From Eunapius fragilis (taxonomy: Eukaryota > Porifera > Demospongiae > Spongillida > Spongillidae): DNA of 64,000 nucleotides. Positions within the stretch are counted from its first letter, which is position 1. Every line of letters starts with the position of its first letter. Made by a program: the position numbers and the translations under genes. Location: contig OY811992.1 of the NCBI GenBank assembly GCA_963681505.1, positions 3,781,389 through 3,845,388 on the forward strand, written 5' to 3'. This document shows positions 11,447-63,970 of this stretch, in pieces. Below the pieces are notes generated by a model. That model was not told where the DNA came from, made no database searches, and saw nothing but the letters and a program-made list of their open reading frames with translations.

Positions 11447-14400
11447 ATGCTCTTGATGAGCATGCTGTTTTCTGGGTATCAGAGCTTATGCCAAGAAGGC
11501 CGTCTGTGGTATGTGGTGCCAGTTGGTGGATCATGCCCTCCTGACCACGCAGCCGCTTGTTTTGACATCAACATTTATGTTCAGAATGCCTCTGTATATT
11601 TTATATCCAACACTACATTTGTGTTCTTACTGGGGACTCACGTCTTGAAAGCTGATAATCTTGTTCAAATCCACGATGTAGAAAAATTATGTTTTATCAG
11701 TGCAGGTAACTTTACGAAGTCCACAATTGCTGATGATGTTGTAAGGTATGGATTTGACCCATATGAGGATGACAGCAGTGTCACGTATTTGGAATCATTA
11801 ACCACAATCACTTGCACTGGGGCATCAGGTTTCTTGTTCCACAATGCTACAGAACTGCACTTAGAAAACCTTACAATAACCAACTGTGGAGCAGTTTCAT
11901 CTTTGAAGACCAAACTCAGTGCAAGTCTTCACCTTGTAAACATCTCCAACCTTTTGATGGAGGGTGTGACCATCAAAAACAGCACAGGATATGGTTTCCT
12001 CGGGATTAATGTGTTGGGACAATCAGCAATAAGTAGATCATAATTTATTGCTAACAATCAAATGATAAAAGATGTATGCACCAAACAAGTAGTGCTTGTG
12101 AGGTGCAACAATGAGATCAATACAATTACATCTTATCTTTACAATGGCGCAGAGTTTAGTATGAGTAATGGAGGGAATCTTAATATTCAGTATGAGGGTT
12201 CAATAAGAACAAGTGACGAACACCAGCTATTTCTATCAGACCTGCTTTTCAGTTTGGGTATTAATGGATCATACACATCTGGAACAGGTTTAGTTTTGGT
12301 GTCAATACAGGGTTCTCCAGGTCATGTTAGAGCCAACATCTATCACACCACATCATACAGGAACCAAGGGTACTATGGGGCAAACTATTATTTTGAAGTA
12401 CTCTCTAGCTTGGATATTGAAATATTTGATGCTAACAGCAAGTTAGGTCTATCTACCTATGGCAGTGTGTATTATCACTTGTTCAAACTGCCTAATGTAC
12501 ATAGCAATACCACAGCACTGTTTTTGATCAACGCTTCAATATTTCAGTGTAACTATGCACAGCAGTATGCTGCTTCAATGAACATTCAGCTGTATGGTAG
12601 TTCTCTTCAATCAACAATTATTTTTGAAAATTCCACATTCTGGAATGACACGTCCTATAATGGAGTTTCTATATTCGTGGCTAGTGTTACTGATATTGCA
12701 ATGTACATTACCAATTGTACATTTAGGATATTGCAACTAAATGGCAATTATGGACAAATGTATATAGAAGGATTTTCGAAAAACCAGGTATTTGTGAGTA
12801 ACTCTTTAATTATGTACACTGTGTTGCTTTTAGAAGCAGCAGAAGTCTATGTTAGAAATAGTACCTTTAACTTTGCACTTGTAGGTGCTATTCGATCCAC
12901 TATGGTTTGCAGTGGTATTGTATATTTTCAAAATTCCTACACTCATCTCAGCGGAGGAGCAGTAGCACTCTATTCATCATCTGTACTTATTATAGATAAG
13001 TACGCAAGTGTAAACTTTGTAAACAATAATGCTACTAATGGAGGAGCCCTTTTTATTGACCAGTCATCCACAATAAACTTCACATCTCCATGCAATGTGA
13101 CATTTATTAACAATACCGCATACCTTAGTGGAGGAGCTATATATGTCCAAGAGGTTAACAGGCTTTTTGAAAAATCAAGATGTTTCTTTCAGTTCAATGA
13201 AACATCTAACACAGAGCAATATGATGTGAATGTGTACTTTGAAGGCAATCATGCAGATGAGGCAGGCAGTGTGCTGTACGGAGGTGCAATAGATAACTGC
13301 ATCTTGTATTGTAACAACATGTGCAATTCATCCTCTGGAAGTATCTTTGATATGATAACACATGTTGGAAATCATGATGATTCAGTTTCTATATATTCAT
13401 CTGATCCTATAATGATATGCTATTGCAATCTAAGTATGCCGCTAAATTGTTCTGACACTTTGAACAATTCAATAGTTATATATCCAGGAGAAGAGATTCC
13501 CCTGCCAATTATCACACTTGGCCAAAGAAATGGAGCTGCTCCTGGAATAATTTATATTTATTACAATGACGGAAGAGATGTAATCATTATTTCAGTACTG
13601 AGGAGTAAAAATCTGTGTGATGTATATAGTATTCCGTATAGAAAGGAAATTGGTTTGTACTACCAATTTATGACAATTCGTAGTTCACTCATCTTTCGTA
13701 GTGGAATTGATACCATTGCTCTGAACATCTCTGTTTTACCTTGTCCTATTGGGTTTGATATTGATAACACATTATTCAAGTGCATATGCAATGACCTTCT
13801 TCAGAGCCATGGTCTCACATGTGAAATCAAAGGTATGGTGCTTTCATGGCCATCAGGAGAAAAATGGATCGGTAATACCTCACATGGTGTTCTTGGAATT
13901 GTTGATGACTGCCCGTATGACTATTGCAGGGACACTGCGAACCTTAGTATACTTAATCCCAACTTGCATTGTAGTTTTAATCACTGTGGTGTGATGTGTG
14001 GTCAGTGCTGTGGTGGTCTTAGCATGAAATTTGGATCATCTCAGTGTGGAAATTGTGCAAACTACTACATGCTTCTTCTGATTCCCTTTGCCATCATGGG
14101 TGTGGTTATGGTGTATGTTCTAGCTGTGATCAACTTCACTGTCACTAGTGGGACAATTAACGGATTGATTCTGTATGCATTTGTCATCAAGCTCAATGCT
14201 CAAATTTTTTTCCTGCCATCTTGTGGTGGAGAGTACAAGGTTGTGAAGATCATTTCAGGTTTTGTAGCTTGGTTAAATTTTGACCTGGGAATTGAAACAT
14301 GCTTTTATGATGGTATGGGTAGCATTGGCAAAGTATGGCTGCAGTTTGTATTCCCCGGGTATGTGATTGCAATCATTGTGGTCATTGTTTTTGCCGGGAG

Positions 14401-15244
14401 TGTCTCAAATACTGTTTCTAGGCTGTGTCGGCGGTACCATATGATTTCTGTCATCGGAACCTTAGTACTACTTGTCTATTCCAAAATGCTGAGAGTCATT
14501 TTAAATATATTCACTTTCAGTCGTATCTACACTTCCACCACATCTTCACAGTTTGTTTGGTCGTATGATGGAAATGTGCCATACGTAGGCACAGACCACA
14601 TTGGCCTCTTTATTGTTGGTGTACTGGTCACCGTCGTATTTATTGTTCCATACACCTTGCTGCTATTACTGACACAATATTTGGTGAGGCTGTCACACTG
14701 GAGAATATTCCGCTGGATGAACAATATCAAACCACTTGTTGATTGCTATGAAGCTCCGTTCAAGGACCAGTACCGTTTCTGGACTGGTGCTATGCTTATT
14801 TATCGCATCGCATTAGGTATCATAACGACACTCTTTTCCCAAGAGCCAACCTTGATACTATTGGCAATTGTTGTGCTCCATGCAGCAATATTATTCTCAG
14901 GTTTTGCCATTTACAAAAGTTGGATCATCAGTGCACTAGAGAGTGTCCTTCATATTAGCCTCATCACCAACTCACTAATGCTGTTTATTCTGGTTCAAAG
15001 CAACTACCAGTGCCCGTCATTGGCCACGGCTATATTTGGATCAGTTGCATTCCTTTGTTTCCTGGGGATCCTTGCACACAGCATCTATGCATATGTGCAG
15101 TTGAATTGCAAAAGAGCTATTGGTCCAAGACCACAGAGCTTGAACTCTAATGGTGCGCCCACGGAGAACCATGGGGATGGAATGCAGCACGTGTATGTAA
15201 ATGATGATGAATATCGTGAACCATTGCTAGAAAGCATTAAGTAG
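11447..15244 (+). CDS. Large surface protein: Pmp-like beta-helix repeats plus multi-pass membrane domain, with one in-frame stop
   Basis: The reading frame runs from an ATG at 11447 (MLLMSMLFSGYQSL, signal-peptide-like; the frame is open back to an ATG at 11327) to TAG at 15244, about 1265 codons. It is interrupted by a single in-frame TAA at 12041-12043. The ectodomain (to about 14040) is rich in N-glycosylation sites and in GGA[IVL] / FxxN motifs (for example YLSGGAIYV near 13120 and NGGALFI near 13035), as in polymorphic outer membrane protein beta-helix repeats. A cysteine-rich stretch (13780-14070) precedes at least seven hydrophobic segments between 14065 and 15110. The cytoplasmic tail is short. 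Secreted beta-helix plus multi-pass proteins like this form large families in sponges; the function is unknown. The stop lies between SAISRS and FIANNQ, which together resemble one continuous repeat, so it looks like a nonsense mutation. A 39-nt GT...AG intron spanning it (12034-12072, with a GCTAAC branch-like site) would also restore the frame. Confidence 0.75.
12034..12072 (+). other. Possible 39-nt intron covering the in-frame stop
   Basis: GTAGATC ... GCTAAC ... AAAAG spans the TAA at 12041-12043 and its length is a multiple of three. Against an intron: the sequence it would remove (FIANNQ) fits the repeat consensus of the ectodomain. Confidence 0.3.
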
Positions 15245-24439: not shown

Positions 24440-24700
24440 GAGCAGCGGTTTGAGAGCAAAAATGAGTACGAGCAACGGTCTGAGAGCAAAATTGCGTACG
24501 GTCTGAGAGCAAAATTGCGTACGGTCCGAGAGCAAAATTGCGTACGGTCCGAGAGCAAAATTGCGTACGGTCCAAGAGCAAAATTGCGTACGGTCTGAGA
24601 GCAAAATTGCGTACGGTCCAAGAGCAAAATTGCGTATGGTCCGAGAGCAAAAACGCGCAGGAGCTGAGAGCAAAAATGCGTACGAGCTGAGAGCAGTTGT
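24440..24700. repeat. 23-bp minisatellite, left arm
   Basis: Unit GGTCYGAGAGCAAAATTGCGTAC, about ten copies with variants at the edges. The complement array lies in the right arm at about 26660-26900. Its repetitive open frames are not genes. Confidence 0.92.
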
Positions 24701-26498: not shown

Positions 26499-26929
26499 GA
26501 CACTCATGCCCACACACAGTTACACTCTAAATAATAGCTGCCTTGCGCTGCCTCAGGATGTTAACAGCCCTTGGACAAACGGATGACGCTAACGATGCAT
26601 CTGGAAGCCATTTTTTTAAAGAAAAAAAAAACAAATGGCGTAATGCCTAAATCCAATGTAAACAACTGCTCTCAGCTCGTACGCATTTTTGCTCTCAGCT
26701 CCTGCGCGTTTTTGCTCTCGGACCGTACGCAATTTTGCTCTCGGACCGTACGCAATTTTGCTCTCAGACCGTACGCAATTTTGCTCTTGGACCGTACGCA
26801 ATTTTGCTCTCGGACCGTACGCAATTTTGCTCTCGGACCGTACGCAATTTTGCTCTCAGACCGTTGCTCGTACTCATTTTTGCTCTCAAACCGCTGCTCG
26901 TACCCGCGACCTACCGGGCCACCGTACTA

Positions 26930-27969: not shown

Positions 27970-30900
27970 TCAAATACAAGTCCTAGTCAAACTATAGTCA
28001 CTACATAACTGGAAGCAGCTGCAGCAAGTCATTCTGTCCTTTCTCACAGTTGAGTGACTGGAATGGGTCTGTTAGAAGAGAGAATTAGGTGCACAAATAC
28101 AACCATGGTGGGTGAGTACATGGAAAGCTGGAAACACAAAAAATTAGCAAAACTGTTCAGTCAAACTTACCTTGTTGGCTTTGGTGGTCATGGTAAGGTG
28201 AGAATCTATGTCTGTTTTAAGAGAGATCCATAGACATGCTCTGATGATGAGTGGGGAGCAGTCTAGGGCATTTGAGGATGGTAGAGTAGCGCATTGCATA
28301 TCCACAATAGCAAGAAATTATTTAGTAGGGGTTTATGTGCATGGGATAATGCCATTGGTGGTAATACTTACGCATTGCATTTTCAGAATAGTATATCAAT
28401 GATGACAGGGAATGTTAAGGTGCAATGGAAAGCTCCTTTTTATTGATACTTACACACTGTATCACACATGATAGTATCCATGTAGACAAGCAATAAGTGT
28501 AGGCACATTAATATCCAATGGGAAATGTAGCATTGCTTATACTTACGCACTACATTTTCGGTAACAGTGTGCGTAGTGACAAGGAATAAGCAGGAGTGTT
28601 AAGGTGCAATGAGAATACAGCACCATTGATACTAACCAACTGCATCGTTCATAATAGTATCCAAGAGAACAATGTATATAGGGTGTGATAAAGGTGCAAT
28701 GGGAAATTCAGCAACATTGCTATTTACCTTCTGCATTGTCCGTATATAATCCACGGCAGAGATAAGTATGGGCAGTAAAAAAATCAAGATCATTGATACT
28801 TACAACCTGCATTGTACATAATGTCATGGTAAAGTACTATGGGAAACGTGACATCATTGATACTTACATACTGCATTGATCATAATAGCATCATAATGGA
28901 ATAAGTAAGGATAGTATAGTGAAATGGGAAATATACATCATTGATTCTTACACTCTGTTTTGTTCAGAATAGTATCCATGGTGACATGGGATGGGTGGGC
29001 GTTGTAAAGAGCAGCGGGGAAATACAACAACCTTGGTACTTACATGCTGCATTATTCATAATTGTAACCATAACAACAGAGTATAGGCAGCAACTTAAAC
29101 ACCATACGTCATCATCACTGATACTTACAGGCTGCATTGTCCATAATAGCATCCATGGGAACAAGGTATATGTGTGCGTGATCAAGTTGCAATGGGAAAT
29201 TCAGCATTAATGATACTTACAACCTGCATTGTTCATAATAATATCCATTGCAATAGGCAAGAAGTAGGCGTGGTACATTTCAATAGGAAATGCTAAATCA
29301 TTGATACTAACGATCTGCATTATTCATAATAGTATTTATGGTGACAAGACATAAGTATGCATGGTAAAATGCAATAGGAAATTATGCAACACCATTGATA
29401 TACTTACAGCCTGTGGCATTGTTCATAATAGTATTCATGACAAGATGAAGGCACGGTAAAGTGCAATAGGAAATACAATATCAATGATCATTACCGTCTG
29501 CAGCATTCATAATAGTAACCATGTCAACGTGGGATAATGGCAAAGTGCAATTGGATAATACGACATCACTTACAGACTACATGTTCACAGTAGTATCCAT
29601 AGGAATTAGAAATATGCTAAAATGCATTATCATTGATACTTACAACCTGAATTGTTCGTATAGTAGTATTCATGGTGATGTGGATTAAGCAGGCATTGTA
29701 ACGTGATGGAATTGGTTGGAACTTACAATCTACATTGTTCATGATCATATCCACGGTATTGGAACAGGTAGGCACGAAAAGGGTGTAATAGGAAATCCTA
29801 ACATCACCGTTACTTACGCTCTGCATTGTTCAGAATAGCATCCATAGTGGCATGGCCCCCAAAAATCAGACATGTTGCAGTTCAAATGTCATTGATACTT
29901 ACACACTGTATTGTCAGTAGAATGATAGTATCCATGGTAACGTGAAAAATAGATACGTTAAGGCACAATGGGAAATCCGACATCAATGATACTTACAGGC
30001 TGTGTTGCATCCAATTGTGATAAGGGATTAACAAGCATGATAAGGTGAAATGAGGAAATGCAACATTATTGATACTTACACGCTGCGCATTTCATTCATG
30101 GTGACAAGGAAGAAGTAGCAAGTTTAAGGTACAATGAGAAGATGCAACATCATTGATACTTACTGTCTGCATTGTTAGTACCAGTGATGGAGATTAGTAA
30201 TTTTATAGATGCGGTACTGAAAGGCATACATCACTTATACTTACGCACTGCATTTTTTATAATGGTATTCAGGGTGACAAGGAATACGTAGCCGGTCATA
30301 ATAGACAATGTAACATCATTGAGAACTTACTAGCTGCAGTCACCATTGTGGCAAGGAATAAGAAGTAGGCATATTAAGGTGCAATGAGGAAAGTAACATC
30401 CTTGATACTTACTCTCTGCATTGTTAGTAGTATTAATGGTGGCACATGCATAATCATAGGGCATGGTAAAGTTCCAATGGGAATTGCAACACCATTGATA
30501 CTTACAGGCTGCGATGTTCACAATAGTTTCCATGGCAATAAGGAATCAGCAGGCACGGTAACGAATGTAACATCATGATACTTACTTGCTGTATCGTTCA
30601 CAATATAGTATCCACGGAGACAAACAATATGTGGGCATGATAAAGGTGCAATGGGAATGCAACAGCATTGATCTTACTTTCTGCATTGTTTACGACAATG
30701 TCCATGGCACAAGAGGTAGGCAGGGTAAAGTGCAATGGAAAATGCCATATCAATAAAACGTACCCACTGCATGCAGTGTTCACAAATGTATCCATGGCAA
30801 CATGGAATTAGTGAATTGCGACGCGAGAAATCATTGATACTTACGCTCTACATTGTTCATAATAGTAAACCCATGACAACATGGAATAAGTGCCGTGCTA

Positions 30901-31214
30901 CGGGAATTGCAACATCATTGATACTTACACACTACATTGGATGCAAGGAATAACCGGTATACGGATTATAACCGAAGTACAATGCCGGGAAATTTAACGT
31001 CATTGATACTCACAAATACCGGAGCCTTTCCGTTGATATCGACCTCTTTGCTCATCTCATGATCAATTTCATCGTTCAGCTGCTACTTTACATAAGTCAG
31101 TTGTTGTAAATACCTCTATTTGACACTTATACGGTCGCAAACCTTGTATCTCTGGGGACTTGCGTCAGCGAATAGAGCCAGTAGGGCCACAAGAAGAGCC
31201 AGTTCCTTCAGCAT
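27970..31214 (-). CDS. Copy A: secreted cysteine-rich peptide gene made of 31 one-codon exons
   Basis: Exon 1 (31214-31143) encodes the signal peptide MLKELALLVALLALFADAS. A 60-63-nt intron with an AACTGACTTA branch-like site follows, then a polar propeptide-like exon (31082 or 31079 to 31014, donor GTGAGT). Next come 31 exons of exactly 3 nt, lowest coordinates in order: 30929, 30845, 30764, 30678, 30586, 30506, 30413, 30331, 30245, 30164, 30080, 29997, 29903, 29818, 29727, 29644, 29574, 29495, 29408, 29312, 29221, 29129, 29044, 28952, 28868, 28804, 28728, 28637, 28547, 28454, 28372. Each lies between an AG (mostly GCAG) and a GT donor (mostly GTAAGT). None is a stop. Exons 1, 9, 13 and 29-31 are TGT/TGC. 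The terminal exon (28068-27970) starts in phase 0, has a CC-x-C motif and ends TGA. Weak sites: GTTAGT (28637, 29312), GTAATG (29495), CAA acceptor (28372). The alternative is a non-coding minisatellite. The function (defence or venom-like peptide) is inferred from layout only. Confidence 0.65.
28372..31011 (-). repeat. Array A of ~85-bp intron units
   Basis: The minus-strand unit begins GTAAGTATCAATGATG, passes through TTGCATTTCCCATTGCAC, TTACCATGCCTACTTATTC, TTGTTGCCATGGATAC and TATTATGAACAATGCAG, then 3 nt, then the next GTAAGT. Spacing ranges from 64 to 96 bp, mean about 85. Units are divergent enough for unique alignment between arrays. Confidence 0.93.
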
Positions 31215-36709: not shown

Positions 36710-36741
<32 letters not shown>

Positions 36742-37325
36742 TGTGCATGTGTGTTATGTATACTGTACACATGTGTGTTGTGTGTGTTTGTGTGTGTGTA
36801 GTATGTGTGTTGTGTGTGTTGTCACGTGTGTGTGTTGTGTGTGTGTGTTGTGTGTGTGCATGTGTGTTATGTATACTGTGTGTGTTGTGTATGTGTTTGT
36901 GTGTGTGTGTGCTGTGTGTGTGTTGTATGTGTGTTGTGTGTGTTGTGTGTGTGCATGTGTATTATGTATACTGTGTGTATGTTGTGTGTGTGTGTTTCTG
37001 TGTGCATGTTGTGTGTTTGTGCGTGTGTGTGTTGTGGGTGTGTGTGTTGTGTGGTGTGTGTTGTGTGCGTGTTGTGTGTGTGTTGTGTGTGTGCATGTGT
37101 GTCATGTATACTGTGTGTGTGTTGTGTGTGCATGTGTCATGTATATATATACTGTGTGTGTTGTGTGTGTGTGTTGTGTGTGTGTGTGTTGTGTGTGCAT
37201 GTGTGTCATGTATACTGTGTTCATGTGTTGTGTGTGGGTAGTATGTGTGTTGTGTGTTTGTGTGTGTGTGTTGTGTGTGTATGTGTGTGTGCATGTGTGT
37301 GTACATGTGCATGGGGAGAGGTGAA
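36270..37325. repeat. 1 kb GT-rich low-complexity tract
   Basis: Imperfect (GT)n with TTGTGTGTG and CATGTGTGT sub-motifs and higher-order repeats (GTGTTATGTATACTGT recurs). Long open frames on both strands here are artefacts of composition. Confidence 0.95.
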
Positions 37326-42826: not shown

Positions 42827-45708
42827 CTAGAAGCAGCTGCAGCAAGTCATTCTGTCCTTTCTCACAGTTGAGTGGCTGGAGTGGGCCTGTTAGAGGATAA
42901 TTAGGTGCACAAATACAACCGTGGTGGGTGAGTACATGGAAAGCAGGAAACACAAAAAATTAGCAAATTTGTTCAGTCAAACTTACCTTGTTAGCTTTGG
43001 TGGTCATGGTAAGGTGAAAATTGTAGAGTAGCGCATTGTGTATCCACAATGGCAAGAAAGTATTTCGTAGGGGTTTATGTGCACTGGTAAATGCCATTGG
43101 TGGTAGTACTTATGCACTGCAGTTTTCATAATAGTATATCAATGATGACAAGGAATGTTAAGGTGCAATGGAAATGCTCCACTTATACACTGTATCATGC
43201 ATGGTAGTATCCATGTAGACATGCAATAAGTGTAGGCACGTTAAAATCCAATGGGAAATGTAGCATTGCTTATACTTACGCACTACATTTTTGGTAACAG
43301 TGTGCATAGTGACAAGGAACAAGCAGGAGTGTTAAGGTGCAATGAGAAATGCAGCACCATTATTGTTCATAATAGTATCCAAGGGAAGAGAAATGTATAT
43401 AGGGCACGATAAAGGTGCAATGCCATTTACCTTCTGCATTGCCCATAATGTAATCCACGGCAGAGATAAGTACGGGCAGTAAAAAATTCAAAGTCATTGA
43501 TACTTACAACCGGCATTGTTCATAATAATGTCATGGTAAAGTACAATGGGAAATGTGACGGCATTGATACTTACAGGCTGCATTTGTTCATAATAATATC
43601 CATAGCAATGTGGATTAACATGTTAAAGTGCCGAGAATAATGCAATATCATTGATGCTCACAGGCTGTTTAATATCCATGGCAACAGATATGTGGAGATC
43701 GTGAAGAGCAGTGTGAAATGTAGCACAGTTGATACTTACATACTGCATTGTTCATAATAGCATCAAAATGGAATAAGTAGGTGAAATGGGAAATATACAT
43801 CATTGATACTTACAATCTGTTTTTTTTTTTAGAATAGTATTCATGGCAACAAGGGATAGGTGGGCGTGGTAAAGAGCAGCGGGGAAATACAACAACCTTG
43901 GTACTTACAAGCTGCATTTTTCATAATTGTAACCATAACAACAGGGAATAGGTAGCAAGTTAAATACCTCACAACATCATCACCACTGATACATACAGGC
44001 TGCATGGTCCATAATTGCATCCATGGGAACAAGACATATGTTTGAGTGATCATGTTGCAATGGGGAATTCAACATTAATGATACTTACAACTTGCATTGT
44101 TCATAAAAATATCCATTGCAATAGGCAAGAAGTAGGCATGTCACATTTCAATGGGAAATGCAAAATCATTGATACTAATGGCATTATTCATAATTATTTA
44201 TGGTGACAAGACATAAGTACGCATGGTAAAATACAATGGGAAATTATGCAACATCATTGATACTTACAAGCTGCAGCATTGTTCATAAATAGTATTTATG
44301 ACAACATGGATTAAGTAGGCATGGTATAGGAAATGCAATATCAATGATAATTACCGTCTGCATCATTCATAATAGTATCCATGTCAACATGGGATAAGTA
44401 GGCATGGCAAAGTGCAATTGGAAATACGACATCACTTACAGGCTCCATGTTCACAGTAGTATCTGTAGGAATAAGAAATATGTAGGCATGCTAAATGCAT
44501 TATCATTGACACTTACAACCTGAATTGTTCGTATAATAGTTTCATGGTGATGTGGATTAAGTAGGCGATGGAAATGGTGGGAACTTACAGTCTACATTTT
44601 TCATGACCATATCCATGGTATTGGAATAGGTAGGCATGAAAAAGATGCTAAGGGAAATCCTAACATCACCGATACTTACGCGCTGCTTTGTTCAGAATAG
44701 AATCCATAGTGGCATGGTCCAAAAAAATCAGACATGCTGCAGTACAAATGTCATTGATACTTACACACTGTATTGTCAGTAGAATGGATAGTATCCATGG
44801 TAACATGAAAAAAATAATTAGATATGTTAAGGCACAATGGGAAATCCGACATCATTGATAAACTTACAGGCTGTGTTATATCCAATTGTGATAAGGGCGT
44901 TAAGGTGAAATGAGGAAATGCAACATTATTGATACTTACACGCTGCGCATTTCATTCATGGTGACAAGGAAAAAGTAGCAAGTTTAAGGTACAATGAGAA
45001 AATGCAACATCATTGATACTTACTTTCTGCATTGTTAGTACCAGTGATGGAGATTAGTAATTTTATAGGTGCGGTAATGAAAGGCAAACATCAGTACGCA
45101 CTGCATTTTTTATAATGGTATCCAGGGTGACAAGGAATACGTAGCCGGTCATAATAGACAATGTAACATCATTGAGAACTTACTAGCTGCAGTCACCATT
45201 GTGGCAAGGAATAAGAAGTAGGCATATTAAGGTGCTTACCCACTACAACAGTATCCATGGCAACATGGAATTAGTAGGCATGATAAATATGCAGCGTAAG
45301 AAATGCAACATCATTGATACTTACGCTCTACATTGTTCATAATAGCATAGCCATGACAACATGGAATAAATGCGCATTATAACATGCAACGGGAATTGCA
45401 ATGTCATTGATACTTACACACTACATTGGATTCTAGGAATAACCGGTATACGGATTATAACCGAAGTACAATGCCGGAAAATTTAACGTCATTGATACTT
45501 ACAGATACTGGAAGCGTGCCTTTCATATCGACCTCTTTGCTCATCTCATGATCTACTTCATCGTTCAGCTGCTGCTGTACATAAGTCAGTTGTTCGAGTC
45601 TAAATACCTTTATTTGACATTTGTACGGTCGCAAACTCTGTACCCCTTGGAACTTGCGTCAGCGAATAGAGCCAGTAGGGTCACAAGAAGAGCCAGTTCC
45701 TTCAGCGT
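42827..45708 (-). pseudogene. Copy B: one-codon-exon peptide gene, decayed
   Basis: Same structure as copy A. The signal exon begins at 45708 but its start codon reads ACG instead of ATG. The short intron is 68 nt (5 nt longer than in A), and the propeptide-like exon ends at 45503 (CCAGTATCT|GTAAGT). One-codon exons lie at 45418, 45325, 45240, 45184, 45098, 45024, 44940, 44878, 44765, 44680, 44589, 44517, 44440, 44355, 44268, 44089, 43997, 43909, 43814, 43740, 43662, 43575, 43508, 43431, 43280, 43187 and 43114. Damage: two donors changed GT to AT (43187, 43114), acceptors changed to CAA (44089) and CCG (43508), two units lost their splice core (near 44180 and 43360), and four units present in A are absent. 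The terminal exon (42886-42827) stops early (TAG for CAG). All six framework cysteine codons survive. A non-ATG start cannot be excluded, but the sum suggests a pseudogene. Confidence 0.65.
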
Positions 45709-48321: not shown

Positions 48322-50500
48322 CTAGAAGCAGCTGCAGCAAGTCATTCTGTCTATTCTCACAGTTGAGTGACTGGAGTGGACCTTTTAGAAGAGAATTAGG
48401 TACACAAATACAACCATGGTAGGTTAGTACATGGAAGGCTGGATACACACAAAATTGTTCAGTCAAACTTACTGTGTTTGCTTTGGTGGTCATGGTAAGG
48501 TGAAAATGATAGAGTTGCACATTGTGCATCCACATTAGCAAGAATTTATTAATAGGGGTTTTATGTGCACTGGTAAATGCCATTGATAATACGTACGCAC
48601 TGCATTTTCAGAATAGTATATCAATGATGACAGGGAATGTTAAGGTGCAATGGAAATGCTCCTTTTTATTGATACTTACACACTGTATCACGCATGGTAG
48701 TATCCATGTAGACATGCAATATATGCAGGCACGTTAAAATCCAATGGGAAATGTAGCATTGCTTATACACACTACATTTTAGGTAACGGTGTGCGTAGTG
48801 ACAAGGAATAAGCAGGCGTGTTAAGGGGCAATGAGAAATGCAACACCATTGATACTTACCAACTGCATAGTTCATAATAGTATCCAAGAGAACAATGTAT
48901 ATAGGGTGTGGTAAAGGTGCAATGGGAAATTCAGCAACATTGCTATTTACCTTCTGCATTGTCCGTATATAATTCATGGCAGTGATAAGTATGGGCAGTA
49001 AAAACTCAAGGTCATTGATTACTTACAACACACTGCATTATACATAATGTCATGGTAAAGTACAATGGGAAATGTGACATCATTGATACTTACAGGCTTG
49101 TTCATAATAATATCCATAGCAATGTGGATTAATATGGTAAAGTGCCGAGAATAATGCAATATCATTGATTCTCACAGGCTGTTTTATTCATTATAGAATC
49201 CATGGCAAAAGAATATGTGGAGATCGTGAAGAGCAGTGGGAAATGTAGCACAGTTTATACTTACAAACTGCATTGGTCATAATTGCATCAAAATTGAATA
49301 AGTAGGTGAAATGGGAAATACAATATCATTGATACTTACAATCTGTTTTGTTCAGAATAGTATCCATGGCAACGTGGGATAAGTAGGCATGGCAAAGTGC
49401 AATTGGAAAACACGACATCACTTACAGGCTGCATTGTTCACAGTAGTATCCATAGGAATAAGAAATATGTAGTCATGCTAAATGCATTATCATTGATACC
49501 TACAAACTGAATTGTTCATATAATAGTATTCATGGGGATGTGGATTAAGTAGGCATTGTAACGTGATGGAAATGGTTGGAACTTACAATCTACATTGTTC
49601 ATGATCGTATTCATGGTATTGGAACAGGTAGGCACGAAAAAGGTGCAATGGGAAATCACGGTTACTTACAGCTTGCATTATTCAGAATTGTATCCATAGT
49701 AGCATGGCCAAAAAATCAGACATGTTGCAGTACTAATGTCATTGATACTTACACACTGTATTTTCAGTAGAATGGATAGAATCCATTGTAATGTGAAAAA
49801 TAATTGGACATAAGGTGCAATGGGAAATCCGACACCATTGATACTTACAGGCTGTGTTGCATTCAGTTGTGGTAAGGGATTAGCAAGCATGTTAAGGTGA
49901 AATGAGGAAATGCAACATTATTGATACTTACATGCTGCGTATTCCATTCATGGTGACAAGGAAGAATTAGCAAGTTTAAAGTATATGCAACACCATTGAT
50001 ACTTACTCTCTGCATTGTTAGTACCAGTAATGTTGATAAGTAATTTTATAGGTGCGGTACTGACAGGCTTGCTAACATCACTTATACTTACGCACTGCAT
50101 TTATTATAATGGTATCCAGGGTGACAAGGAATACGTAGCCGGTCATAATAAGTTGAAATAGACAATCTAACATCATTGAGATCTTACTGGCTTCTGTGTT
50201 CATAATAGCACCATTGTGGCAAGGAATCAGAAATAGGCATTTAAAAGGTGCAATGAAGAAATGTAACAGCCTTGGTTCTTACAGCTACAGTAACCTGCAT
50301 TTTAGTAGTATTAATGGGGGGCACATAATCATAGGGCATGGTAAAAACACCATTGATACTTACAGGCTGCATTGTTAACAATAGTTTCCATGGCAATAAG
50401 GAATCAGCAGGCATCATTCAAAGTATATTATCCACGGAGACAAACAATATGTGGGCATGATAAAGGTGCAATGGGAATGCAACAGCATTGATCTTACTTC
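48322..50500 (-). pseudogene. Copy D: one-codon-exon array lacking its 5' exons
   Basis: The 3' part is like copies A and B: terminal exon 48381-48322 (stops at TAG as in B) and small exons at 50498, 50364, 50283 (12 nt), 50188, 50092, 50007, 49932, 49849, 49753, 49670, 49587, 49504, 49426, 49340, 49265, 49176, 49094, 49027 (6 nt), 48951, 48860, 48769, 48680 and 48597. Beyond 50540 the sequence jumps to spacer DNA (like 42135-42400), so the signal and propeptide exons are deleted. The second to sixth framework cysteines are kept, and one has changed silently between TGC and TGT (48769 versus 28547 in A). The acceptor at 49670 reads CAA. Without a first exon it is presumably a relic, unless it is spliced onto an upstream gene copy. 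Confidence 0.65.
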
Positions 50501-53230: not shown

Positions 53231-56200
53231 ATGCTGAAGGAACTGGCTGTTCTTGCGACGTTACTGGCGCTTTTCGCTGACGCCCGCTTTACGAGTTATG
53301 AGGTTTGCCATCGCAAGCGTCATCTGAGAGAGCCAACGATTGTTTCACTTGCAACAGCAGCAGAAATATACAGACAAAGTGGTTGATACCAGTGACAGCG
53401 GAAAATTTTTGACTAACCGTGACGACGTCGACGTTCCTGCGAACGGTAAGATTAGTGCGCTGCTGTTAGGCGTGATTGATTTATAATCAATATACCGGTA
53501 TAATTATGTTATTTTTTTCTACTCAAAGAAATCATGAATTATTATTTGAGTGGAGAAAGTTTGACGACCCAGGTCAGAATTAGCGTTTAATATGAACAAT
53601 TGTAATCATCTTCGCGTACTGCCGTGCACCGGCATTGATGAACAATGAAGGGGAAGGAGACAGTAAGCATCAATGTTGTTGCATTTTCAATTACTATTGC
53701 ACTTGTTCCTTGCCAACATTGATGCAAATATCAACAATTCAGTGTGTATGTATCAAAAATCTTTGCGCTTTATAATGAAAATATACGTATTTCTTGTTGC
53801 CGCTGATTGATTTTTTAATAACGCTGCAGTCGGTAAGTATATCGACGAGGTTGCATTTCCAACCATTTATAATTCTTGTTTGTTACCATGCTGGATACTA
53901 TTATAAAAAATCAAGTTGGTAAGAATCAATGGTTTTACAATGCCCATTGCTTTACTGCCCTACATACTTCTTGATGCCGTGATTAATGCAGTTGGTAAGT
54001 ATAAGTCACGTGGCGTTTCCCATTGCACCATTACATTCCCTACTTATTCTTTGTTACCATGGATATTACAATGCAGGGTGTAAGTATCTAATGTGTTGCA
54101 TTCCCTGCCTTGCCGTATCTATTACCTATTATTCTTGTTGCTATACGCAGCGCGGTAACGTAAGTACATCGTTGCAGTTCGCGTGCATCTTTGTCATGCC
54201 TTCTATAATTTCTTCCCACTATGCATAACTATTTCCTGTACTAATAATGCAGACCGTTAGTATCAATGATATTGCATTTCCTTAATATGCCTATACGTAT
54301 TCCTTTCGGCCATGCGAACGATGTATAGTGCGTAAGTTTCAGTTGTAAAGCATTTTCCACTGCACCGTTACCATGCCCACTAATTCCTTACCACCATGTA
54401 AACTATTTCCGGTAATAACAATGCAGAAGGTAGTAACATTTCGTCGTTGTACATTAACATGCATTAAATAATATTTCTTGTCACCATGGTACTGTTATGA
54501 ACTATGCTATAGATACCCGTAAGTATCAATGATATTGCATTTCATTAACACGCATACTAACCTTCTGTCACCATGGATACAATACAGCCTGTAAGTATCA
54601 ATGATGTTGGATTTCTCATTTTCCAATTGCATCTTGACATGGGTTGATTATTATTTTGACTTTGTCATTATGGAACTTATATTTATACAATCCAGTGTGT
54701 AAGTACCATTGGATGTTATATTTCTGCACTGTAAGATGTCTTAAATTTTTCGGACCTTGTCCCATGCATAATGCAGAGGGTAAGTACGAAAGATGCAGCA
54801 TTTCCTATTGCATACCACACCTACTGATTACTTTATTGGCACGAACACTATAATGAACATTGCAGCTTGTAAGTATCGATTTATGTTGCTGCTTTTATCA
54901 TGCCTACTTACTACTATGAACAATGCAGCATGTAAGTATCAGTGATGTTGCAATTTCCATTGCACATTACTGTGCCTGCATACTGTCATGGATGCTATTA
55001 TGAACAATGCAGATTGTAAGTCTCGCGCATTTCCCATTGTACTTTACCTATTACTTGTTGCTCTGGTGAACAAACGTATCAATGATGTTGCACTTTCCTT
55101 TGCACTTCACTTATTACTTAACTTGTTGGCATGGTACTATTATGAACAATTCACCCCGCAGAGTAACGTAAGTATCAATGATGCATGCTACCGCATTGCT
55201 ATAGCTCATTTCACTTTACTTGTACCTTGTTGCCATGATGGTATTATGAACAATTATGAACAATGCAGTTTGTAAGTATCAATGCTGTATCAATGAAGTT
55301 GCATTTCTCGTTGTATCTTCATGACTTTACCATGCATATCTATTCCTTGTTGCCATGCATATTATTGTGAGCAGGGCGTAAGTATGAATGGTGATACTGC
55401 ATTGCCTATTACACTTTACCATGCCTATGTATTGCTTTTTGCCATGGATACTATTCTGAACAATGCAGGATGTAAGTATCCATGATGCTACTGCTTTTCT
55501 AGTTCATTGCACTTTACTTGTACCTTGTTGCCATGGATGGTATTATGAACAATTATGAACAATGCAGATTGTAAGTATCAATGATCTTATCAATGAAGTT
55601 GCATTTCTCATTGTATCTTATTGCCATGGATACTATTGCACTTTACCATGCGTAATTATTCTTGTTGCCATGGATATTATTGTGAGCAGGGTGTAAGTAT
55701 GAATGGTGATGCTGCATTGCCTATTACACTTTACCATGCCTACGTATTGCTTTTTGCCATGGATACTATTCTGAACAATGCAGGGTGTAAGAATCACTGA
55801 ATGATGTTGCATTTCCCATTCATTTTACTTCTTTTCTTTTTCTTGTTACTATGATTATTTCGGGCAATGCAGTATGTAAGTATATCATTGAATGATGATA
55901 CAGTTCGAATTGCACTTCACATCTGTTTATTCCTTTTCGCTATTACTAACATGAACAATTCAGCTCGTAAGTATATCAAACATGTTGCATTTCCCACTGA
56001 ACTTTACCACGCATTAATACTTATGAAAATGCAGTATGTAAGTATCAATGATATTGCATTTCCCGTTGCACCTTAACATACCGTCCTATTCCTTGTCAAT
56101 CACACTATTATTGACAATTCATGTAGTGCGTAAGTACAACCAATTCTGCACTTTTCATTGCACATTACCATGCCTACTTACTCCTTGTCAACATGGATAC

Positions 56201-56527
56201 TATTATGCGTAATGCAGTGCGTAAGTAACAATACTTTTGTGTTTCCCATGACTCCTTATTTTATCCCTCATCACAATCGATATTGTTCTGAATAATATAG
56301 TGTGTAAGTATACATTTCCTATAACACTTAACCCAACTGACTAACAATGTCATGCGACAATGGACACACTACTGAATCAAAGGTAAGTTTTTTAATCAAG
56401 TATTTATTCCTTTACTACTGTCATATTGTGTTAAATTCTCTGCAGCCATTAAAGCTGTAATTGTAAGTTTAACTGAATAATTGTTTACATTTGATGTGTT
56501 TTGTATAAAACCATTACATTCATTTGT

Positions 56528-56567
<40 letters not shown>

Positions 56568-56649
56568 GGTACTGAGAACCATGAAGAAACATAATGGCTG
56601 CTGTAACTGCACTAAGCTGTGTAGTGACTATAGTTTGAATTCAACTTGA
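53231..56649 (+). CDS. Copy C: secreted cysteine-rich peptide gene made of one-codon exons
   Basis: Exon 1 (53231-53302) encodes the signal peptide MLKELAVLATLLALFADA. A 58-61-nt intron is followed by a propeptide-like exon (53361 or 53364 to 53445) and probably exon 53529-53572, which returns the phase to 0. Thirty small exons follow: 53651 (12 nt), 53743, 53830, 53916, 53992, 54077, 54151 (9 nt), 54253, 54329, 54427, 54513 (6 nt), 54588, 54696, 54777, 54866, 54929, 55013, 55162 (6 nt), 55269, 55375, 55469, 55568, 55690, 55784, 55873, 55964, 56035, 56127, 56218, 56301; all unmarked ones are 3 nt. Each has AG before and GT after. No codon is a stop. Cysteines fall at 53743, 54329, 54696, 56127, 56218 and 56301: C-x8-C-x4-C-x15-C-C-C, against C-x7-C-x3-C-x15-C-C-C in copy A. 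The terminal exon 56569-56649 opens in phase 0, keeps the CC-x-C and CSDYSL motifs of copy A, and ends TGA. A unit near 55070 has lost its splice core. The donor-like site at 56452-56470 suggests an alternative 3' end. The product class is inferred. Confidence 0.65.
53663..56300 (+). repeat. Array C of ~85-bp intron units
   Basis: Same unit as arrays A, B and D, now on the plus strand. Units are more divergent than A from B, so the inverted copy is older or has evolved faster. Confidence 0.92.
56525..56562. repeat. TG microsatellite in the last intron of copy C
   Basis: (TG)n directly before the TAATAG acceptor of the terminal exon. Confidence 0.92.
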
Positions 56650-59967: not shown

Positions 59968-61658
59968 ACTTGGCCCAATGTTGTTTGCTCTGGTCCTCCG
60001 TAAACTGGTATCTTCCGTGGAGGCAGATGATGGCTGCTATAACCTCCTTTTGAACCTTTGGTATCTTGATGATGGGGTCCTGGCAGGAGACCGATTGGCA
60101 GTGTCACGTGCCTTAAACCTTATTGAAGAGTTGGGTCCAAACCTGGGCCTTCACATTAATCTTCCAAAATGTGAGTTATTCAGTAGGAATGGTAGTGCAT
60201 TGTTCCCACCAGAGGTGAAAGTATCCAACTCATCAAATTTGGAGGTCCTTGGAGTTCCAGTTGGGGACTTCATCCACTGTTCCCGGGTCATTTCTGAGAA
60301 ATGTGCTCAGAGCAGTGTTACTTTCGGCTATTGTAGATGTCTCAGTGGTAGACTTGCATGTCTCCCTATCTCTGCTTCGTATATGTGGAGGTTTTTGTAA
60401 ACTTATCCATCTGGCCAGAGCCACTCCACCTAGTCTTTGTGTGGACAGTTTGAAACACTTTGATGATGAAGTCAGGAAATGCTTTGCTTCATGTCTGGCT
60501 TTATCTATCCCTGATAGTAATTGGAACCAGGCACAGCTTAGCCTCAGCTCTGGTGGGTTAGGGCTCCGTTCCCTTGCACTGTATGTTCCAGCTGCTTCTT
60601 TGGCAGCCTCGGGGTGTGCTAGTCCTGGCAACATGCATCTAGAGAAGGCTGTGGCGTCTTTCAACAATCAGGTCTCCATGCTTGATGTTATAACAGTTGA
60701 CACGGTCCTAGCAGTCCCTCCACATCAACATACTTTGTCCAAAAAGCTGGACCATCAACTATTCCAGTCTCTCCTGTCCTCGGCTTCCCCTGTAAACAAG
60801 GCACGTCTCCTATCTGTGTCTGCTTCACATGCAAGTTCCTGGATCTCAGTGGTCCCTTCTACGAGCCTTGGTCATCATCTTGATCCTGCTGAATGTCAAA
60901 CAGCCATCAAATGGTGGCTTGGCCTGGACACATCCGGAGGCTCCCTTTGTCCTTTCTGCTCTGGCATCGCCCTGGACCCTCTTGGACACCATGCCATCTC
61001 TTGTAGACATGGTGGGTTTGTTGTTCTTCGTCCTAACCACCTCCGTGACACCATAGCCAACTTCTGTCACCGTGCCCACCTTTCGGTGAAAGTGGAAATG
61101 GGACATGGGCTATCCCCAAGTCATTCTAATTCCTGTCCAGCTGACATTCTTGTTCAGGGCTGGGATAGGGGTCGCCCTGCAGCCTTTGATGTGACAGTGA
61201 CCTCTCCTCTCACTCCAGCCATCATGGAGGAGACTAGTGCCTTGGCAGGTGCTGCAGCTCACATTGCTGAAACAAGAAAGCACTCAGCCAATGATGCCAA
61301 GTGTGAGGAGTTGGGCTGGGTGTGCATCCCATTGGCTGTGGAATCCTATGGTAATTGGGGGATGGAGGCTCGTTCCACTCTCAAACGCTTGGCCTCCCTA
61401 ATTGCCATCTATGAGTCACGCATAATGGCTTCGGTGTTGTCAGAGCTATAGGGCCACCTCAACTTATCTTTAGTTAGGTCAGTAGCAAGAGCCATAATGG
61501 GTAGGGAGTCTATGGGAGTGGGTTGTTAGGCTGTTTATGCATACATAATGTGTAGATAGTGTGCATTAGTTCTATTGTATACACTTTTACTTGGTGTGTT
61601 GATTCCGTGCTTTATATTCCTTTGAAGATTTATTAAAATAATAATAATAATAATAATT
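59968..61658 (+). mobile_element. Retroelement copy 1: reverse transcriptase C-half plus zinc finger and nuclease-like domain
   Basis: 5'-truncated inside the reverse transcriptase. The palm motif C is NLWYLDDGVLAGD (near 60050-60090), followed by a LGLHINLPKCELF segment. A frameshift lies between about 60249 and 60400, after which the frame is open to 61451. The C-terminal part has IKWWLGL, a zinc-finger-like CPFCSGIALDPLGHHAISC, then SCPADILVQGWDRGRPAAFD VTVTS with the spacing of a PD-(D/E)XK-type nuclease. Such an arrangement resembles site-specific non-LTR elements of the R2/NeSL type; this is inference. The copy ends in an (AAT)n tail (61637-61658). An identical tail type at 59947-59965 suggests another copy's 3' end just upstream. 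Confidence 0.78.
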
Positions 61659-61659
61659 T

Positions 61660-63970
61660 CTAAGCATCCTAAGAGTCCTCTTCCATCTCCACCTTCTGCA
61701 ACTTCAGCACCACTTCTCCCTTCTGATTTTGACTTGAAAGCAATATTACATTCGTTTCCAAAGAGCACAGCCTGTGGTCCATCAGGCCTACGCATACAGC
61801 ATTTGATTGAGGTAGCTAGTATTCCAATGCCGTCTCCAATTTGTGCAGTCCTCAGGGATGTAGTAAATTTACTTATGTCAGGTAAGGTTGCTGTTTCTGT
61901 GGCAAAGTTTATGGAAGGGGGTAGTCTTGTGGCCTTGGAGAAGAATAAGCCAAATTGCCCACCTGATGTATGTCCAATTGCTGTTGGTGAATCTTTAAGA
62001 CGACTGGCTAGCAAATGTATTTGTGCTATAGTTAAGAACAAGGCCTCCGAATTTTTTTCCCCTTTCCAGCTAGGAGTGGCCTGCCCTTCAGGGACTGAAA
62101 AAGTTATTCATGGTTTGAAAAGTTGTGTGGATGATAATTGGCTCAATGGGGACTTTGCTGTTATGAAAATTGATCTACGTAACGCATTTAATCTGGTGTC
62201 TAGGCAAGCTGTGCTGAATGCTGTTAATCTCCATTTCCCGGAACGGTTGTCATGGTCTACCTGGTGTTACGGTCAATACCCTATACTGTGGCACACTCTT
62301 GGTTCCATTACATCTGAATCAGGTGTCCAGCAGGGAGATCCCTTAGGCCCTTTGCTTTTTTGTCTGGTTTTACATTAAGTAGTTTGTGCCATTGTTACTG
62401 ACAGTGAATGTGCCTCTCTGTTGTTTCATCGGTGGTATCTAGATGATGGTGTTGTGGCCGGTCCCATCTCTGCTGTTTTACTTGTGCTTTCCATCATAAC
62501 AGACTTGGGACCTCCTCTTGGCCTTCATATCAACCTGTCTAAATGTGAATTATTCAGTGTCAATGATCTTAGTAGGTTCCCAAATGAAATGAAAAAATCC
62601 AACGTGCCTCATTTCGATATACTAGGGGCCCCAATAGGAGATTTTTTGTTCTGTGCCAAGTATATTGCTCAAAAGCGTACAGATGCCTCCAAGTTGCTCC
62701 CAGGTAGGTTCTTCAGATCAATGCTTCTACTTCGTCAATGTGGAGGGTTTTGTAGGTTGATACATCTGGCTAGAACTATCCCACCTTTTTTAGCTGGTGA
62801 TGCCTTCAGTCTATTTGATGATGAGGTGCGGCAGTGTTTTGCAGAGTGTACTGCGGTAGACACTTCTGACTCTGCATGGCTGCAGGCGCAACTTATTAAA
62901 GTCGAGGCGGTCTAGGCTTGCGACGTGTGTCCTACCATTCTCCTGATGCGTATTTAGCTTCAGCTGTCAGTTCAGGCTTATCTTATGAGGTTTGTAGGTA
63001 CTTGCACCACTCTGTAGACCTTTACAACAACCTTGTTGATCCTCCTGACTCACTTACTTCGGATTTTGTTGACAACAGCTGTTCCTCCACCACCCAGAAG
63101 TTCCTGTCAAACAAAATAGAGGATTTTCAGTTCAGGAAATTGTTTAATAACTCCACTCCAATCGACAGGGCACGTCTGTTGTCAATTTCATCACCTCATG
63201 CCTCAGCTTGGCTATCAGTTACTCCATCCCCTAGCATAGGCCTTCACTTGGAGCCTTCTGAATTTCAGGCGGCAATAAAATGGTGGCTCGGTATACCAGT
63301 TGCTCAACGCCAAAGTTGCACTCAGTGCAATGCTGCCTTGGATGATTATGGTCATCATGCACTGTGTTGCAAGTTGGGAGGTGATGTCGTCTCCCGTCAT
63401 AACAAGTTGAGAGACATCTGTAATGATTTCTGTCACCGTGCCTGTCTTGCTCCACAGCTAGAGATGGGAGGGTGGTCAAAGGGAACATACTCGTCCAGCT
63501 GATGTTCTTGTTCCAAACTGGGTCCCGAGTAAGTCAGCAGCATTTGACCTGTCTGTCACATCAACGCTTAACGCAGATGTTTTTCAAGAAGCGAGTGTGA
63601 CAGCAGGTTCGGCTGCTATGGCTGCCCAGATCCGCAAGCACAGGGTTAACGATGGAAGGTGCAGTGAACTAGGCTGGGTTTGTATTCCTCTTGTAGTGGA
63701 GACATGTAGATGTTGGGGTACTGAGGCTATTCAGGCACTATCAAGACTTGCCACACGTTTGTCCACCAGGCATGGTCTCCCCAAGTCGCTAGTGTGTAAC
63801 AAACTATTTGGTGGACTAAGTTTAGCCCTTGTGAGAGCAAACTCTTCAGCCATCCTATCCCACTCCCTATAAACTGTGCATGTTGATGCTGTAGGTAGAT
63901 TTTGTTTTGTGCATACTGTATCATATATCTGAAATAGTTAATTGACCTTATTATTAAAATATATGTATAC
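61660..63970 (+). mobile_element. Retroelement copy 2: reverse transcriptase with frame breaks
   Basis: It starts directly after the (AAT)n tail of copy 1. The reverse transcriptase fingers and palm are seen: ACGPSGLRIQHL, CPIAVGESLRRLASK, motif A MKIDLRNAFNLVS (near 62165), motif B SGVQQGDPLGPLLF (near 62325) and motif C HRWYLDDGVVAGP (near 62435). An in-frame TAA at 62376-62378 splits motifs B and C. A frameshift at about 62915 and breaks at about 63500-63597 split the zinc-finger (CTQCNAALDDYGHHALCC) and C-terminal parts. It ends in AAT repeats at about 63955-63985. Not functional as read. Confidence 0.8.

Follow-up and report, generated by a model that had tools for sequence, protein, structure and literature searches.

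Can a region of a protein be spliced together almost one residue at a time? The question is raised by a predicted gene at 53231-56649 on the plus strand of the 64,000-nucleotide (nt) stretch of the freshwater sponge Eunapius fragilis analysed here (the window), in which a preliminary description had placed, after a signal-peptide exon and a propeptide-like exon, 30 pieces of 3, 6, 9 or 12 nt, each between splice sites. We conclude that the gene very probably represents a sponge gene family that builds small secreted peptides by splicing about one codon per exon. At the level of sequence, the phase, coding character and order of the pieces, the selection acting on them and the family itself are established, and the view that the triplets act as codons, in order and under diversifying selection, is strongly supported. 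We infer that the arrays are actually spliced and that their products are secreted; that these products serve as defence or other externally acting peptides is a proposal with about an even chance of being right.

All 30 pieces were recovered, in an array spanning 53651-56303 on the plus strand: 26 are 3 nt long, two are 6, one is 9 and one is 12. The introns between them measure 60-146 nt, in agreement with the range of about 60-150 nt given before, and the proposed reading in phase 0, with no stop and six cysteine codons, holds for 30 of 30 pieces. Upstream, the signal and propeptide exons stand, but a third, previously unlisted exon of 44 nt is also present (53529-53572); downstream, the terminal exon with its CC-x-C motif is found at 56569-56649, but it opens in the same phase only if a 17-nt exon is skipped. 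The predicted exons are as follows.

53231..53302, plus strand: exon 1, signal peptide MLKELAVLATLLALFADARFTSYE, ending in phase 0 with donor gtttgc; a like exon occurs in paralogs
53364..53445, plus strand: exon 2, acidic propeptide KYTDKVVDTSDSGKFLTNRDDVDVPAN, ending in phase 1; a homologous exon occurs in paralogs and in E. muelleri models
53529..53572, plus strand: exon 3, adaptor (E)IMNYYLSGESLTTQ, 44 nt (3n+2); homologs MIISYLRAKNAGSLTSQ and others
53651..53662, plus strand: array exon 1, GKET, 12 nt
53743..53745, plus strand: array exon 2, TGT (Cys)
53830..53832, plus strand: array exon 3, TCG (Ser)
53916..53918, plus strand: array exon 4, TTG (Leu)
53992..53994, plus strand: array exon 5, TTG (Leu)
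54077..54079, plus strand: array exon 6, GGT (Gly)
54151..54159, plus strand: array exon 7, CGCGGTAAC (Arg-Gly-Asn)
54253..54255, plus strand: array exon 8, ACC (Thr), donor gttagt
54329..54331, plus strand: array exon 9, TGC (Cys)
54427..54429, plus strand: array exon 10, AAG (Lys), weak donor gtagta
54513..54518, plus strand: array exon 11, ATACCC (Ile-Pro)
54588..54590, plus strand: array exon 12, CCT (Pro)
54696..54698, plus strand: array exon 13, TGT (Cys)
54777..54779, plus strand: array exon 14, AGG (Arg)
54866..54868, plus strand: array exon 15, CTT (Leu)
54929..54931, plus strand: array exon 16, CAT (His)
55013..55015, plus strand: array exon 17, ATT (Ile)
55162..55167, plus strand: array exon 18, AGTAAC (Ser-Asn)
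55269..55271, plus strand: array exon 19, TTT (Phe)
55375..55377, plus strand: array exon 20, GGC (Gly)
55469..55471, plus strand: array exon 21, GAT (Asp)
55568..55570, plus strand: array exon 22, ATT (Ile)
55690..55692, plus strand: array exon 23, GGT (Gly)
55784..55786, plus strand: array exon 24, GGT (Gly)
55873..55875, plus strand: array exon 25, TAT (Tyr)
55964..55966, plus strand: array exon 26, CTC (Leu)
56035..56037, plus strand: array exon 27, TAT (Tyr)
56127..56129, plus strand: array exon 28, TGC (Cys)
56218..56220, plus strand: array exon 29, TGC (Cys)
56301..56303, plus strand: array exon 30, TGT (Cys)
56446..56462, plus strand: likely stop exon, 17 nt, CCA TTA AAG CTG TAA TT (PLKL-stop)
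56569..56649, plus strand: terminal exon with CC-x-C; 3' untranslated region if the 17-nt exon is used, otherwise an alternative C-terminus

The predicted joined product, MLKELAVLATLLALFADARFTSYE-KYTDKVVDTSDSGKFLTNRDDVDVPAN-EIMNYYLSGESLTTQ-GKETCSLLGRGNTCKIPPCRLHISNFGDIGGYLYCCC-PLKL-stop, has no internal stop, and its phases fit from the ATG to the stop. The acceptor of exon 2 is one of several neighbouring cag sites, and the exact choice among them is uncertain. The adaptor exon leads from phase 1 to phase 0, and the alternative acceptors of array exon 1, read by eye, leave 6 or 3 nt, always a multiple of 3. The 17-nt exon is likely to be the counterpart of the TGATGAnn and AAATAAG stop exons of the paralogs; when it is skipped, phase 0 runs on through the terminal exon as VLRTMKKHNGCCNCTKLCSDYSLNST-stop. 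Near 56381, after array exon 30 and ahead of the stop exon, there is also by eye a zero-length site, AAAG followed by GTAAGT, which resembles a recursive splice site.

Within the window, the pattern YAG-NNN-GTAAGT occurs 73 times against 1.11 expected (100 shuffles; largest shuffle, 6). Of these sites, 21 lie in the plus-strand array, one lies elsewhere and 51 belong to three further arrays on the minus strand, at approximately 31214-28171, 45705-42987 and 50500-48473, showing that the window gene is not alone.

28171..31214, minus strand: second family member; signal exon MLKELALLVALLALFADASPQRYK with ATG at 31214, array 30931-28456, 8-nt exon 28178-28171
42987..45705, minus strand: third family member; array 45420-43282, 8-nt exon at 42994
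48473..50500, minus strand: fourth array; 50366-48599, with a further site at 50500 and an 8-nt exon at 48480

When the search was extended to the genome (218.9 megabases (Mb), 24 contigs), GAACAATGCAG-NNN-GTAAGTATCA was found 283 times and its reversed control 0 times; with up to 2 mismatches, a similar pattern gave 521 matches (control, 0). Genome-wide, no piece of 0-2 nt lies between the identical flanks, and the pieces of 4-12 nt are one of 4, three of 6, two of 9 and one of 12, such that multiples of 3 make up 289 of 290 pieces. The gene models predict 593 pieces, of which 551 are 3 nt long and 22 are not a multiple of 3; L029-L032 (L numbers denote arrays) were read by pattern only and stand outside the piece, stop and divergence counts. 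We read pieces of 14, 17, 22 and 23 nt as parts of pre-array or last exons and a few others (7 and 29 nt) as wrong sites, as we do the 2-, 4-, 7- and 10-nt pieces added by gap filling. An in-frame stop is present in two 7-nt pieces and in five of the nine that are 8 nt long; the four 8-nt pieces without one belong to the three minus-strand window genes and L013. Introns follow no multiple-of-3 rule: of 569, 162 have a length of the form 3n, 254 of 3n+1 and 153 of 3n+2, the surplus in the 3n+1 class coming from the common length of 88 nt. Introns under 130 nt span 51-119 nt, most commonly 88, and a few longer gaps in the arrays may hide missed exons. Because intron length is free in this respect, we rejected a coding repeat translated straight through.

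None of the 572 one-codon pieces in 23 arrays is a stop, the near-identical duplicates L016 and L022 and all pieces not of 3 nt having been dropped from this count. From the frequency of TA- and TG- starts and third-base use elsewhere, 32.3 stops would be expected (P ~6e-17), or 15.1 if each codon is counted once per gene (P ~2e-8). Codons of the form NNT are never stops, and 66% of the triplets end in T; in two further frames read in the window the share is 10% and 39%. The expected numbers already allow for this bias. Across the concatenated arrays (635 codons), frames 0, 1 and 2 contain 0, 12 and 67 stops, and the other two phases were rejected on these 12 and 67. On the opposite strand, the triplets contain 5 stops.

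Divergence between paralogs is distributed by codon position. In seven close pairs, chosen from 15 after the results were known and with four arrays used in two pairs each, positions 1, 2 and 3 differ in 42, 54 and 20 of 146 codons, corresponding to rates of 0.288, 0.370 and 0.137 against 0.116 in mid-intron sequence. Positions 1 and 2 diverge 2.5-3.2 times more than the introns, and only position 3 fits the intron rate (P 0.44). Cysteine is kept in 31 of 32 cases in these pairs and other residues in 49 of 114 (P 8e-9). Exons diverge more than introns in 13 of 13 pairs that are not near-identical, although the more distant of the 15 pairs may align unlike units; the two near-identical pairs have zero exon differences. 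Entropy over 571 units is 1.98 and 1.96 bits at positions 1 and 2, the top of the 50 unit positions listed, and 1.42 at position 3. Such a pattern would be expected from phase-0 translation, diversifying selection and kept disulphides.

Individual units point to rapid codon change. In 132 unit pairs with near-identical flanks (at most 2/64 differences), position 1 differs in 36% and position 2 in 37%. Of 107 pairs within 3/86 flank differences, 36 of which join different genes, the codon differs in 43, in 28 of these at two or three bases; because the nearest flank pairs are not necessarily the latest copies, these codon change figures are a lead rather than a rate. They may reflect either gene conversion that homogenises introns while selection guards the codons, or a special route of codon replacement.

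The cysteine framework of the window gene, C..C-K-IPP-C..CCC, has counterparts in L019 (C..C-KRP-C..CCC), L023 and L024 (C..C-KPP-C..CCC), L027 (C..C-KAP-C..CCC) and L031 (C..C-RHP-C..CCC). It is not matched by L009, L010, L011, L012, L014, L015, L017 and L028, and L018 and L029 are proline-rich with no cysteine. Products ending in CC occur in 12 of 17 genes against 0.38 expected, a count for genes picked from 25 arrays that are not independent, owing to shared descent.

A signal exon of the type MLKELALLVTLLALFADARP lies upstream in 20 of 25 arrays, including two near-identical duplicates. Among the remaining five, the third window member has a weaker match (45616-45705, minus strand, E 0.29), one is a second array inside L018, and the signal exon of L025 may fall outside its fetched stretch (match at C20:2402770). 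Upstream of L013 and of the fourth window array (50366-48599, minus strand), which is possibly incomplete, no signal exon was found. Searching the genome with exons 1 and 2 gave at least 66 matches, a lower bound in which the window gene itself is unlisted; 53 cover the signal-exon part, over 13 contigs and with E up to 1.6, the weakest being possibly chance. Exons 2 and 3 together are acidic, with net charges of -4, -3 and -7 in three genes. By eye, an adaptor exon leading from phase 1 to phase 0 was read in the window gene, L009, L011, L014, L017 and L020; it is not plain in L015, L018, L019, L021 and L022. A phase-0 stop is reached in the exon that directly follows the array in 8 of 25 cases (L014, L023-L028 and the window gene), and by eye an in-frame stop exon is present in L010, L019 and L020 as well; the corresponding exon of the three minus-strand window genes contains no such stop. 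The last exons of the window genes, L011, L014, L017 and L019 carry a CC-x-C or C-x-x-C motif before their stop (by eye), and this recurrent motif often sits beyond the stop of the array frame. L015 and L016 (C12, 3.126 and 3.138 Mb) are inverted arrays, identical across the approximately 2.3 kilobases (kb) compared, which points to duplication in the very recent past or to an assembly problem.

Several pieces of evidence thus uphold the coding character, phase and order first proposed for the one-codon pieces: (i) the absence of stops, (ii) the restriction to multiples of 3, (iii) the divergence by codon position, (iv) the kept cysteines, (v) the common signal, propeptide and adaptor exons, whose phases fit in those genes for which they were determined, and (vi) the stop exons after 8 of 25 arrays. 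What was first proposed for the terminal exon is upheld only in part.

Relatives of the precursor occur in Ephydatia muelleri, to which we assign all Em- names because two of the matching records carry both an Em- name and that of the species. Seven of the best eight matches (E 2.3e-14 to 5.0e-7) have E. muelleri or Em- names, and every named homolog is either an E. muelleri 'hypothetical protein' or an Em- locus. The MLKEL precursors of E. muelleri have the same signal, propeptide and adaptor exons as those described here, and model P0121 connects exons 1-3 in the way predicted for the window gene. In P0127, P0131 and P0146, the adaptor is followed by one codon and then by a VSI-type sequence (VSINDVA in P0131). 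Judged by their sequence, these tails are a translated intron unit; the array unit is then present in another sponge, and the models miss the array. According to PMC7385117, the Em- models were made by AUGUSTUS, with RNA-seq used for training. In Pfam, three predicted products of the E. fragilis family matched 0 families at E up to 1.

In the mechanism that we favour, the precursor would open with a conserved signal peptide, which an acidic propeptide and a short adaptor exon follow. Next would come the mature peptide, spread over a tandem series of about 12 to 52 units in which a single codon (rarely 2-4) is paired with a GT-AG intron of about 88 nt. Removal of these introns in phase 0 would join the single codons into a peptide, which in several members would have the form C-x(n)-C-x-x-P-C-x(n)-C-C-C, and many members would then meet an in-frame stop exon. 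The array introns of about 88 nt, with strong GTAAGT donors and, by eye, a CTTAAC-like branch point some 50 nt upstream of the acceptor, would suit intron definition, and a 3-nt exon can hardly hold splice complexes on both of its sites at once; the introns are therefore probably removed one after another. Tandem duplication, to which block repeats point, would lead to gain and loss of units and so add or remove whole residues, and codons would be altered under diversifying selection with the cysteines kept. Among the matches listed in searches of open-licence PMC papers, none described one-codon exons in arrays, or micro-exons in a sponge.

A number of observations weigh against this mechanism. 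Several E. muelleri models read through into the array intron, and among the 30 of 31 matching proteins inspected, none recognisably connects even two of the one-codon exons. A search of the genome for intronless copies of three predicted products found none; a possible copy at C17:1563405 (E 0.22) was rejected because its sequence is unrelated. A phase-fitting adaptor exon is established for six genes only, and in 17 of 25 arrays the gene model contains no in-frame stop exon. Some splice sites are weak, and one unit of the window gene, near 55070, has apparently lost its acceptor. The paralog tests rest on related, overlapping pairs, and a sole 4-nt piece between identical flanks occurs on C13.

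These points have to be set beside other explanations of the same arrays. A non-coding minisatellite, that is, an untranslated 91-base-pair (bp) repeat with splice-like words and a variable three-base core, would account for tandem units with a common consensus, and the 66% of triplets ending in T would lower the chance of stops. However, stops are absent even when third-base use is allowed for, the length of the core is fixed to multiples of 3 whereas introns vary, positions 1 and 2 are fast and position 3 evolves at the intron rate with cysteines kept, and the same signal exon lies upstream in 20 of 25 arrays; we consider a minisatellite highly improbable. Decay is a different matter: many arrays, perhaps including the plus-strand window gene, could be pseudogenes of a once working family, as the array at 50366 with no detected signal exon, the unit near 55070 without an acceptor and the weak donors might indicate. 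The 0 stops in 635 array codons oppose this. So does the retention of AG and GT where exons are aligned, with a single AG altered (L023/L024), a retention that is partly due to site choice, and we judge general decay to be quite unlikely.

The origin of the units and the use made of them also admit other accounts. Near-identical introns could have entered an existing exon as introners, separating its codons, instead of being duplicated together with a codon. Two pairs of units from different genes, identical over 86 nt of flank and differing in codon (GGT/CCT and GCT/GTT), fit such insertion, and the few 6-, 9- and 12-nt exons could be unsplit remnants; but insertion predicts all phases and exon lengths of 1, 2, 4 and 5, which are nearly absent, and the codon block repeats in L014, L018, L025 and L029 fit duplication of whole units, making an introner origin very unlikely. 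Alternatively, the arrays could be cassettes whose codons are variably skipped or included, giving many peptides from one gene. Array exons are symmetric (phase 0-0), leaving any subset in frame, and splice-site strength varies along the array; the recurrence of the order C..C..PC..CCC in several genes, with cysteines kept, instead argues for one main full product, and we regard variable inclusion as doubtful. A broader version, equally tentative, would see each gene as a codon-by-codon diversity machine in which gene conversion would hold the intron units alike, single codons would be exchanged, frequently at two or three bases in one go, and units would come and go as whole residues; with alternative inclusion added, one gene might generate a peptide library.

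Elsewhere in the window, a purple acid phosphatase has its closest match in Em0009g1136a (74% identical). Retroelement-like reading frames occupy 59969-63872 on the plus strand, with an RVT_1 (reverse transcriptase) match in 61626-62375, and a 1066-amino-acid open frame at 12044-15244 (plus strand) matches the Chlamydia-type polymorphic membrane protein repeat. One 23-bp repeat forms two opposite arrays about 2 kb apart (24475-24695 and 26667-26864), and a long TG-rich repeat at 36710-37302 has a higher-order period of 239 bp. Neither Rfam, at gathering scores, nor a tRNA scan gave a match in the window.

If true, one-codon splicing would mark an extreme of exon size for building a whole protein region, and it would raise the question of how the spliceosome copes with 20-50 successive exons of this kind. 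It also suggests a residue-by-residue evolution of peptides without frameshifts, in which codon positions and a neutral intron yardstick adjoin in every unit and selection becomes directly measurable. The E. muelleri models run into the first array intron; gene finding therefore overlooks genes of this type, and other genomes may harbour comparable families that have escaped notice.

Conotoxin-type precursors combine a conserved signal and propeptide with a hypervariable mature peptide in which cysteines are kept. Their layout is comparable, but in the sponge family the mature part is split codon by codon; in its working, the family would most resemble secreted-peptide precursors that are variable outside the cysteines. 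Introners are likewise near-identical introns present in many copies, inserted in all phases; the sponge introns share the near identity across many genes but are in phase 0 and tied to tandem codon units. Schistosome micro-exon genes, compared here by gene structure, encode secreted variable proteins in runs of short exons, most of them multiples of three, and are difficult to annotate automatically; for the sponge products, secretion is predicted from the signal-like exon upstream of 20 of 25 arrays. As given in PMC10526429, their exons measure 6-81 bp (also given as 3-81), mostly 15 bp, with introns of 0.1-5 kb; in contrast, the sponge exons are mostly 3 nt (551 of 593) and the sponge introns about 88 nt, in tandem near-identical units. 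Aphid bicycle genes, putative effectors with many small exons, include a 'megacycle' gene with more than 100 microexons; in the excerpt of PMC9168663, their internal exons are described as small and almost all phase 2, whereas the sponge arrays are in phase 0 with one codon per exon. That tiny exons can be spliced is indicated by exons of 3 nt and, in Arabidopsis APC11, of 1 nt (PMC4674806) and by a 1-nt exon in a Fusarium P450 (PMC12940212). Those 3-nt and 1-nt exons are isolated cases, whereas the sponge exons come in runs of 20-50.

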